From NCBI GenBank assembly GCA_003584005.1, contig QXHL01000018.1, positions 1-60,463 on the forward strand: 60,463 nucleotides of DNA, read 5' to 3'. Below are positions 24,055-47,848 of this stretch, in pieces (the first letter of the stretch is position 1; each line of letters opens with the position of its first letter). Below the pieces are notes generated by a model that was not told the DNA's origin, did no database searches, and saw nothing but the letters and a program-made list of their open reading frames with translations. This DNA comes from Alicyclobacillaceae bacterium I2511 (GTDB taxonomy: Bacteria; Bacillota; Bacilli; Alicyclobacillales; Alicyclobacillaceae). Position numbers and translations under genes: made by a program.

Positions 24055-24085
24055 TTGACAAATGAGGCTGTCTTAGTGTTACAAT
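24055..24085 (+). promoter_or_regulatory. promoter of the c-di-AMP riboswitch leader
   Basis: TTGACA (24055-24060), 19-base spacer, TACAAT (24080-24085), just after a perfect palindrome CGCCAGATCTGGCG (24034-24047) at the end of the amidase gene. It would give a leader of about 570 bases. Confidence 0.55.
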
Positions 24086-24169
24086 GATATAGTAAGTTAA
24101 AGAATTGCTCACAGAATTTTCTAAAACCCAATCTTCAAATTCCACAAGACAGTCTAGGGAAGGGCCTAA

Positions 24170-24338
24170 TTTTGCACCCTGCTTGGCAAGTACGGCGGGG
24201 CGAAAACGGGGGATCCAACTATTTGGGGTGAATTGTGGATTTGCGCCCGCAAATCCACATAGGCAGGGTCAGGACTTTAGATAGTCATGACTTGAAATGA
24301 ATGATATGCCGAATCCGACAGCTAACCTCGTAGGCGAA
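24170..24338 (+). promoter_or_regulatory. c-di-AMP riboswitch (ydaO/yuaA class)
   Basis: Conserved blocks in the right order: CGGGGGATCCAA (24207-24218), TTGGGGTGAATT (24223-24234), an 11-bp variable hairpin (24234-24259), ATAGGCAGGGT (24259-24269), and CCGAATCCGACAGCTAACC (24309-24327) followed by TCGTAGGCG. TTTGC (24171-24175) can pair with GCGAA to close P1. In characterised members, c-di-AMP binding turns expression off; targets are mostly potassium and osmolyte transporters and wall enzymes. Here it precedes the HAD phosphatase/mtlD pair. Between 24338 and 24664 a GCTTGTT/AACAAGC stem (24347-24414) and a CATCTAC/GTAGATG hairpin (24482-24505) could form the expression platform, but I cannot fix a terminator. 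Confidence 0.88.
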
Positions 24339-24664
24339 TACTAATGGCTTGTTCGTTATCCTTCTTATGCAGTGCTTCATCATACACTGTCCCTTGGATT
24401 TCGTTCAAACAAGCACCCAAACAACTGAAAATTGCGCACGGTAAATTCTAACTATTAATTTTTTCCTATTGTCTTTTCATGCATCTACGTTTCCTTGAGT
24501 AGATGTCTCTAGTCCAGGAGGGACTTCATTAAAAACCGAGTGCTCTTCTGATGTATTTAGTTTTGCCCATGAACCAAGACAACCTATGTGAAGGAAGACT
24601 CCATCTCGTACATCAGGTGGGGAGACCCCATTCAAGCAAATTTAGAATTTGAGAGGAGAAACCG

Positions 24665-25360
24665 ATGATTAAAGCTATCGTGTTTGATTTTGATGGTACG
24701 GTGATTGACACAGAAACCGCGTGGTATGTTGCGTTTCGGGATGCCTACCGAAAATATGACGTGGAATTAACCCTAAAACAATACTCCGAATGTATCGGTA
24801 CAAGCTTGCATTCCTTTAACCCGTATGATTATTTGGTCACACATCTTCACCTTCCCATTGATCTAGATGAATTCCGAAAATCGGTCAAAGAGTATCATAC
24901 CAAACTGATGGAAACCGAGAATGTACGTCCTGGCATCGTTGATTTCTTGAAGTTAGCGAAACAAAAAGAGCTCAAGGTGGGGCTTGCCTCGAGCTCCGTA
25001 TCAACCTGGGTGAATAGTTTTTTGAGTAAATTGGATTTGCTCTCTTATTTCGACTGTGTTCGCACCTCAGACCATGTGAGCCATGTCAAACCAGACCCCC
25101 AATTATATCTGCAAACGTTGGACTGTTTAGGAGTTAAACCACACGAGGGAATTGCTATTGAAGATTCTCCTAATGGGGCCAAAGCAGCGGTGGCGGCAGG
25201 ACTGTACTGTGTGGTTGTTCCTAATTCCATTACAAAGTATCTCCAATTTGGTCCCGTCCATCAAAGGGCAGATTCCTTAAGCGATCTCGATTTTGATGGG
25301 TTGCTCCAACAAAGTTCTCAACTTAAATCTGAGCTGTCCTACGAAAGGGGACCTTTCTAA
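24665..25360 (+). CDS. HAD family phosphatase, probable mannitol-1-phosphatase
   Basis: 231 residues of the beta-phosphoglucomutase-like HAD subfamily. Motif I DFDGTVIDTE (residues 8-17; nucleophile Asp8), motif II SSSVS (about 111-115), motif III Lys in HVKPDP (about 141), and EDSPNG for motif IV. Cap domain is helical. It overlaps mtlD by one base (TAATG), so the two are co-translated; with no PTS present, dephosphorylation of mannitol-1-phosphate is the likely job (inference from context). GAGAGGAG precedes ATG 24665. Confidence 0.85.
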   Translation: MIKAIVFDFDGTVIDTETAWYVAFRDAYRKYDVELTLKQYSECIGTSLHSFNPYDYLVTHLHLPIDLDEFRKSVKEYHTKLMETENVRPGIVDFLKLAKQKELKVGLASSSVSTWVNSFLSKLDLLSYFDCVRTSDHVSHVKPDPQLYLQTLDCLGVKPHEGIAIEDSPNGAKAAVAAGLYCVVVPNSITKYLQFGPVHQRADSLSDLDFDGLLQQSSQLKSELSYERGPF

Positions 25361-26517
25361 TGAAAGTTGTCCATTTTGGTGCGGGAAATATCGGCAGAGG
25401 ATTCATCGGATTGCTGTTATCACAATCCGGTTACAATGTTTGTTTCATTACGCGCAATCCTGTCAAGATATCGCTCCTGCAGCAAAGAAAACAATACACG
25501 GTAACGTTGGCCAATGAAAGTGAAGATTCCGTCACCGTGAACAACGTAACGGCCATCAATATTCGGAACCACGAAGAAGTAATCAAAGCTGTCGCCGAGG
25601 CCGATTTAGTCACAACAGCGGTGGGAGTCAGCGCTTTAAAGAACATCGCCGAGCTGATAGCGAGGGGCATTAAGCGACGTTTGCAACAAAACCCGAGACC
25701 ATTGAACGTAATTGCCTGCGAAAATGCCATTCGGGCCAGTTCCAAATTAAAAAAATTGGTGTACCCAAAGTTATCCCCAGAATTGCATGCTGTTGCGGAA
25801 CAATTCATTGGGTTCCCCAGTTCGGTTGTGGACCGGATTGTTCCCACTCAGAATTCTAAAGACCCCCTGAAAGTTAGGGTGGAACCTTTTTATGAATGGA
25901 TACTTGAACGGCCAGAGATGAAGGGGAACCTCCCTGAAATTGCAGCAATTCACTACGTGGATTCGCTCGATCCATATATTGAACGCAAGCTATTCACGGT
26001 GAACACAGGTCATTGTAGCGCAGCTTACCTGGGTTACATTGAAGGCTACCAAACCATTCAAGAAGTGATGCGAAACCCCAAGATACGCGAAAAAGTATGC
26101 CGGGTCCTGCAGGAGACGGGGGAACTGCTGATTAAAAAGTATCACTTTGACAAAGATCAGCACAGTCGGTATATTCAAAAGGTTTTGCATCGATTTTCGA
26201 ACCAAAGTTTGACAGACAAAATTGTTCGGGTGGGTCGCAACCCCATTCAAAAGCTATCGCCTAATGAACGCCTCGTGCGTCCATCGATGCAGGCGTATGA
26301 AAATGGGTTGGATACTCCCAATTTGAACTCCGTCATGGCGGCGGCCCTCCTGTTTGATTACAATCAAGACGATCAGGCAACGGAGCTTCAGACAACCATT
26401 GAGCATGATGGAGTGCAATCCGCCATCACAACATTCACGGGAATTCCAAACAGGCATCCTCTTCATAAAAAGGTGCTTTCAAAATACCGGACCCTTTTGG
26501 CCATTCAATCCCATTAA
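25360..26517 (+). CDS. mtlD: mannitol-1-phosphate 5-dehydrogenase
   Basis: 385 residues. N-terminal VVHFGAGNIGRGFIG is the NAD-binding loop; VVDRIVPTQ (about 155) and KLFTVNTGHCSAAYLGYIEG (about 210-229, catalytic Lys and His) are characteristic. Interconverts fructose-6-phosphate and mannitol-1-phosphate. Usual Bacillus mtlD genes sit with mannitol PTS genes; here the only partner is a HAD phosphatase, which favours synthesis of mannitol from fructose-6-phosphate. Under the c-di-AMP riboswitch. A fused phosphatase-dehydrogenase doing this is known from Acinetobacter. Confidence 0.93.
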   Translation: MKVVHFGAGNIGRGFIGLLLSQSGYNVCFITRNPVKISLLQQRKQYTVTLANESEDSVTVNNVTAINIRNHEEVIKAVAEADLVTTAVGVSALKNIAELIARGIKRRLQQNPRPLNVIACENAIRASSKLKKLVYPKLSPELHAVAEQFIGFPSSVVDRIVPTQNSKDPLKVRVEPFYEWILERPEMKGNLPEIAAIHYVDSLDPYIERKLFTVNTGHCSAAYLGYIEGYQTIQEVMRNPKIREKVCRVLQETGELLIKKYHFDKDQHSRYIQKVLHRFSNQSLTDKIVRVGRNPIQKLSPNERLVRPSMQAYENGLDTPNLNSVMAAALLFDYNQDDQATELQTTIEHDGVQSAITTFTGIPNRHPLHKKVLSKYRTLLAIQSH

Positions 26518-47423: not shown

Positions 47424-47636
47424 CGCCAAGCGTTTCCCATCGGTGGCCTACAGCCTTTCACTTCCCGTAGGACCAGTGATACAAACCCAAGCACACCCAG
47501 GGTCTGTAGCGTCTGCGCAGAAGTGTCCGTTGCCATAGGAGGTTCCCCACCAAATTGCCCATGCTAAACACGGCGCAAATATAGTGAGCAAACCCCGCAC
47601 AAAAAATGGACGGACTTACCGATGGTTCTCGTTGGC

Positions 47637-47848
47637 TCCCTCTTTCATCCGGACTATACCGTCGGTACTGGATTCACACCAGTTCCTGCCCATCTCCCCC
47701 GTCCTTGGAAACTGATTCGTCCTGCAACAACGAAACAGCCCCATACACCGGAGAAACCTTGGCTCGTGGACTTCGCCGCTCCCATAAGAACTGCGTCACC
47801 ACCGATCAGGAATTGGCCTCATGGCCTCACCCTGCCCCGAAGGATACA
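47637..47848 (-). promoter_or_regulatory. FMN riboswitch (RFN element)
   Basis: Read leftward: ATCCTTCGGGGCAGGGTGA, CTGATCGGTGGTGACG, AGTCCACGAG, CTGGTGTGAATCCAGTACCG, then ACGGTATAGTCCGGATGAAA and GAGGGAG, all the conserved RFN blocks in order. FMN binding is expected to favour the downstream terminator and shut off ribD-E-BA-H. A leftward TATAAT at 47875-47870 is the likely -10, placing the start of the transcript near 47863. Confidence 0.95.

Follow-up and report, generated by a model that had tools for sequence, protein, structure and literature searches.

The window analyzed here, 60,463 nucleotides of contig QXHL01000018.1 from Alicyclobacillaceae bacterium I2511, contains what is probably a mannitol biosynthesis operon gated by c-di-AMP, in which a riboswitch aptamer precedes a gene for a HAD-family phosphatase and the gene for a mannitol-1-phosphate 5-dehydrogenase, mtlD (Table 1). 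In the scheme that we favor, MtlD would use NADPH to reduce fructose-6-phosphate to mannitol-1-phosphate, from which the HAD enzyme would take off the phosphate, and mannitol would accumulate as a compatible solute. At high c-di-AMP, when potassium and turgor are sufficient, the bound aptamer would turn the operon off, and falling c-di-AMP would lead to the expression of the HAD and mtlD genes.

Table 1. Features of the putative mannitol operon and its leader (positions are those of the window)
Feature	Position	Strand	Basis or remark
Putative promoter	24055..24085	+	Sequence reading: TTGACA 24055-24060, 19-base spacer, extended -10 TGTTACAAT
c-di-AMP riboswitch aptamer (ydaO/yuaA, RF00379)	24153..24351	+	cmscan
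Leader between aptamer and HAD gene, 313 bases	24352..24664	+	No canonical terminator
Shine-Dalgarno GAGAGGAG of HAD gene	24651..24658	+	Sequence, position from folding
HAD-family phosphatase, 231 aa, proposed mannitol-1-phosphate phosphatase	24665..25360	+	PF13419 1.5e-36
mtlD, mannitol-1-phosphate 5-dehydrogenase, 385 aa, NADP-type T31/R32	25360..26517	+	NF002652, PF01232, PF08125

The ydaO-class aptamer proposed in the first-pass annotation was confirmed by a covariance search (cmscan, Rfam 15), in which the RF00379 model matched the plus strand with 69.4 bits (E 4.6e-14) relative to a gathering cut-off of 38 bits, and over its full length (1-134 of 134). All core blocks had been claimed to be present, and in the covariance alignment they are intact (CGGGGGA, GGGGUGAAU, UAGG and CCGAA..CCG.CAGCUAACCUCGUAGGCG) apart from a single substitution on the 5' side, GCCUAAU instead of GCCGAAU. 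By family the RNA is a genuine c-di-AMP aptamer, and ligand binding is predicted for it. It has in common with the RF00379 elements before kimA and ktrAB of B. subtilis the aptamer family, the conserved core and a place before genes of osmotic balance. It differs from the elements at known targets in that the pair it precedes is one of putative osmolyte synthesis, not of transport or the cell wall, and in that the usual terminator is missing from its leader.

Including the window's, the genome has nine RF00379 matches. The other eight lead kdp genes, an Opu-like ABC ATPase, LysM and NlpC-type cell-wall hydrolases, a KamA-like radical SAM protein and a protein without an assigned function. Given these nine switches and two diadenylate cyclase genes, c-di-AMP is probably made in this host, and the mtl pair fits an osmotic regulon because kdp, Opu-like and cell-wall genes are what the other switches mark. 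The same potassium, Opu-type transport and cell-wall genes speak against the view that mannitol is made for redox balance or carbon storage, with c-di-AMP tying the operon to growth state. We consider that view unlikely; it draws on the fact that most carriers of a HAD-mtlD pair have no riboswitch, so that mannitol synthesis in them is not tied to c-di-AMP, and a simple NADH sink is in addition contradicted by the NADP-type cofactor site described below.

Among the other switches, the one before the Opu-like ABC ATPase (L085, G000:C160:24745-24915, plus strand) stands ahead of a gene that appears split over two frames, possibly through a frameshift or an assembly error, and another (L080, G000:C33:63381-63536, minus strand) leads the KamA-like (lysine 2,3-aminomutase-like) gene. 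Derivatives of beta-lysine are osmolytes in some bacteria, and the switch-led KamA-like gene may represent a second osmolyte route under c-di-AMP control. In this genome it has no acetyltransferase gene as a neighbor. The window also contains an FMN riboswitch (47633-47848, minus strand, 74.8 bits) before ribD-like and ribE-like genes, which is ordinary.

With respect to the genes, two overlapping ones had been claimed, mtlD and then a HAD phosphatase. Profiles bore out both identities, and the overlap consists of one shared base (TAATG), but the order is the reverse, the HAD gene coming first. The MtlD, the only one that the genome encodes, lies above several equivalog cut-offs for mannitol-1-phosphate 5-dehydrogenase (M1PDH), the best being NF002652 (469.5 versus 356 bits), and the two mannitol dehydrogenase domains of Pfam are recognized in it. 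The catalytic residues of S. aureus M1PDH (Asn119, Lys200 and Asn205) are kept as N122, K210 and N215, as are two of the three arginines of its phosphate pocket (R283, R287 and R294); the position of Arg287 is taken by Gln297, where every other sequence compared has Arg. In the HAD protein all four motifs of the family are present (DFDGT at 8, SSS at 109, KPDP at 142 and EDSPNG at 166). Its top NCBIfam profile is the hexitol phosphatase HxpB (NF008087), and at 120 bits versus a cut-off of 191 it falls outside that equivalog and was not filed as HxpB; its substrate is therefore suggested rather than established. The likeness to E. coli HxpB, which we take to be the protein of PDB entry 1TE2 ('2-deoxyglucose-6-P phosphatase'), lies in this best profile match and the difference in the score below the cut-off; the E. 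coli gene is not known to be paired with mtlD. Close relatives of the HAD also occur in genomes without mtlD (G001, G027 and G256), for which reason we rejected the HAD as proof of mannitol specificity, and a HAD tree neither supported nor rejected a clade of mtlD-paired HADs. Such solitary relatives, the low HxpB score and Q297, which alters the phosphate pocket of MtlD, would all suit a HAD acting on some other sugar phosphate, the pair then making another polyol or only mannitol-1-phosphate. We judge this quite unlikely, in view of the M1PDH gene that adjoins the HAD gene in most of the relatives collected and of the MtlD score, which exceeds the M1PDH equivalog cut-off by more than 100 bits.

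The strongest new evidence for the synthetic direction, which it supports at the level of sequence, is the loss of Asp31 across the clade of HAD-linked MtlDs. This NAD-binding residue of classical NAD-specific MtlD is absent from the window protein, which has Thr31-Arg32. When 22 HAD-linked and 40 PTS-linked MtlDs were aligned, all 40 of the latter had Asp at position 31, and all 22 of the former had T, A, G or V there, never Asp, together with Arg32 and Lys36. In the larger set of pairs an Arg again follows position 31 wherever this can be read, and Lys36 is variable. Rossmann enzymes usually come to use NADP(H) by losing this Asp and having an Arg at the next position, and we read T/A/G/V31 with Arg32 as the signature of such a switch in the HAD-linked MtlDs. 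In S. aureus M1PDH, Asp31 is predicted to bind NAD, and a structure comparison superposes it on Asp69, an NAD-binding residue of the P. fluorescens enzyme (PMC6623548).

The HAD-linked MtlDs form one clade, separate from the MtlDs of PTS operons (support 100/99); a later, quick MtlD tree contained other rows, was rooted at the midpoint and was not designed to test this clade. Nearly all of the other MtlDs collected adjoin either PTS-type genes or a HAD gene, and in some genomes there is one of each kind (G143, G153, G193 and G376). The PTS operons with which Firmicutes catabolize mannitol (EII genes, a regulator and mtlD) contain a homologous MtlD, with ~35-57% identity, and the window differs from them in having no PTS genes, a replaced Asp31, a HAD partner and a place in the separate clade. 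No mannitol PTS gene had been seen nearby, and this can now be extended to the whole genome, in which the sole PF02378 EIIC belongs to a fructose PTS, being fused to a fructose-type EIIB and adjoining a 1-phosphofructokinase-like gene. Together with the loss of Asp31 in the HAD-linked clade, the absence of a mannitol PTS supports the earlier designation of the pair as mannitol-making. MtlD is chiefly familiar from operons for uptake, and PTS-linked examples are among those collected, which would accord with a catabolic pair serving mannitol from outside. Such a role is highly improbable here, where there is no mannitol PTS and where the phosphatase partner would reverse PTS phosphorylation; the split of HAD-linked and PTS-linked MtlDs into separate clades, with both kinds in several genomes, likewise argues against it.

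A known system that combines a HAD phosphatase with a mannitol-1-phosphate dehydrogenase is the bifunctional MtlD of Acinetobacter, in which mannitol is salt-induced and the osmolyte-making enzyme prefers NADPH (PMC6291793), a preference that is predicted also for the window MtlD. In Acinetobacter the two activities lie in one fused protein and in the window in two separate ones; the dehydrogenase of the window is of the classical short MtlD family and only distantly similar, and c-di-AMP riboswitch control is not described in the accessible text for the Acinetobacter enzyme. Against the fused Acinetobacter-type profile NF046057 the window proteins scored 68 and 87 bits, far from the cut-off of 800. 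Since both Acinetobacter domains are detectable but remote, the window pair is an analogue and not a split copy.

The arrangement is not confined to the window. Same-strand RF00379 aptamers were identified upstream of eight other HAD-mtlD pairs in eight other genomes, and with the window the switch-bearing pairs extend over nine genomes, four families and two orders. This survey, which the first-pass annotation had called for, lends support to its inference of direct c-di-AMP control over osmolyte synthesis. The order to which the window belongs was searched in 59 genomes, and four of them (G000, G038, G050 and G057) have a HAD-mtlD pair. In G050, which is of a different family, the pair is immediately preceded by an aptamer scoring 81.3 bits (L061), and the hairpin GCGCCCGC and flank GGCGAAUA that this aptamer shares with the window's suggest a common origin. 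Upstream of the pairs in G038 and G057 no riboswitch was found even at E up to 5, and hidden riboswitches at these two loci were rejected accordingly. The second order, to which G061 and Paenibacillus belong, contributed 395 genomes; with these and the earlier loci, 87 HAD-mtlD pairs were collected, a few of them duplicates. Seven pairs of this order have a same-strand RF00379 match upstream (L141, L142, L143, L177, L179, L190 and L203; 64.9-85.7 bits). The aptamer core motif is missing upstream of most of the 87 pairs; the switch-less pairs were screened by this motif and in part by the full Rfam model, so there are at least nine switch-bearing pairs. These nine require about four state changes on the MtlD tree (about four lineages), and the link between switch and pair has therefore been gained or lost several times. 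By our estimate, which assumes ~10 c-di-AMP switches per genome of several megabases, chance would place fewer than one switch within a few hundred bases upstream across all pairs. Searches of viral and plasmid collections found no close relative.

Genome G1125 has two HAD-mtlD pairs, of which L143 is preceded by a c-di-AMP riboswitch and L169 is not. Riboswitches on the opposite strand beside eight pairs (L104, L150, L153, L155, L176, L180, L189 and L201) were not counted as mtlD leaders, because three lead a KamA-like gene and the rest another gene or no clear one. In the former (L153, L176 and L201, all of the Paenibacillus order), the KamA-like gene with its switch lies beside HAD-mtlD on the other strand. 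In L104 (910-1049), L180 (463-601) and L189 (485-623), a complete aptamer with a strong terminator lies on the minus strand between HAD-mtlD and a chloride-channel gene; these aptamers point antisense into the ClC gene (typed in L104) and have no obvious gene of their own.

The leaders of these loci bear on how the switch would act. Behind the aptamer there are strong hairpins with U runs in L141, L142, L143, L177 and L203 and weaker terminator candidates in L179 and L190, and in L061 a strong terminator is placed nearer the gene. The seven second-order leaders have a conserved GAUGGGUC just 3' of the aptamer (GGUGGGUC in L203), which is complementary to an aptamer strand and also, by inspection, to the 5' arm of the terminator (GACCC or GGCCC). 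Read from the sequences, this architecture is that of a ligand-induced terminator, and the terminators in most second-order leaders are as expected for an OFF switch, so that the off state in most of these relatives would consist of premature termination at the hairpin just behind the aptamer. The earlier proposal that mannitol is made when c-di-AMP falls gains support from the relatives, most of whose leaders have terminators, but this direction is unreadable from the window leader itself, in which a search for a terminator found none that was convincing.

In the window leader, a U-rich tract at 24459-24467 (UUUUUUCCU) is predicted to pair with the Shine-Dalgarno region (~24654-24661; p ~0.95), and the predicted folding of the ribosome site was unchanged when the aptamer was set apart. 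Complementarity of the 3' strand of P1 to the downstream leader was no better than in shuffles for both the window and L061, and a P1-competing strand in the window leader was rejected on this basis. Of the other riboswitches in the genome, the one before kdp has a clear terminator, but several have none and lie right at the start codon, which makes non-terminator control plausible in the window. Our guess is translational control, which may act by masking of the Shine-Dalgarno sequence.

The main rival to translational control is a decoupling of the aptamer from the genes, in which the riboswitch would be vestigial, the aptamer having stayed and the switching element having been lost, with the genes expressed constitutively or from another promoter. 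The 313-base linker without a terminator is what such a history might leave behind, as are the weak P1, the odd core base and the lower score of the window aptamer than of the one in L061. We nevertheless regard decoupling as somewhat unlikely, given that the remaining core blocks are all intact, that control without a terminator has the genomic precedents just mentioned and that a promoter scan with spacers of 16-18 bases listed no sigma-70-like plus-strand site in the window leader. The perfect -35 element TTGACA at the start of the span given in the first-pass annotation and TGTTACAAT, inside which lies the -10 hexamer TACAAT (24080-24085), form a candidate promoter of the leader; it is missing from the scan list because its 19-base spacer exceeds the range of the scan. 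The preferred reading remains a c-di-AMP-gated operon. Counting against it are the window leader with no convincing terminator, the folding of the ribosome site that does not depend on the aptamer, the P1 result, Gln297 in MtlD, the many HAD-mtlD pairs that have no switch and the HAD relatives in genomes that have no mtlD.

The general idea that c-di-AMP controls the synthesis of osmolytes has been put forward before: PMC5986932 credits Nelson et al. (2013) with proposing riboswitch control of osmoprotectant synthesis in cyanobacteria, and a review names both osmoprotectant synthesis and transport (PMC7288161). The cyanobacterial switches, as that citation presents them, resemble the window's in the control of osmolyte synthesis and differ in the organisms. 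No paper in the literature collection searched linked c-di-AMP riboswitches to mannitol, and mannitol synthesis is likely a new target of this riboswitch.

Studies of c-di-AMP in Firmicutes center on cell-wall enzymes and on how potassium and osmolytes are transported. If our reading is true, osmolyte synthesis would be under direct c-di-AMP control, and the mannitol pool and the mRNA would move opposite to c-di-AMP. Residues 31-32 would then predict which mtlD genes in databases make and which degrade mannitol, a division that the MtlD profiles naming these proteins do not draw. We put it at about an even chance that the NADPH-dependent MtlD clade and the HAD phosphatase constitute an undescribed Gram-positive pathway for a compatible solute, gated by c-di-AMP riboswitches in several lineages of two orders, such that one messenger would set potassium uptake, solute uptake and osmolyte synthesis. 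With the arrangement recurring in relatives, it is probable that mannitol production in these cells is coupled to the signal for potassium and water balance.
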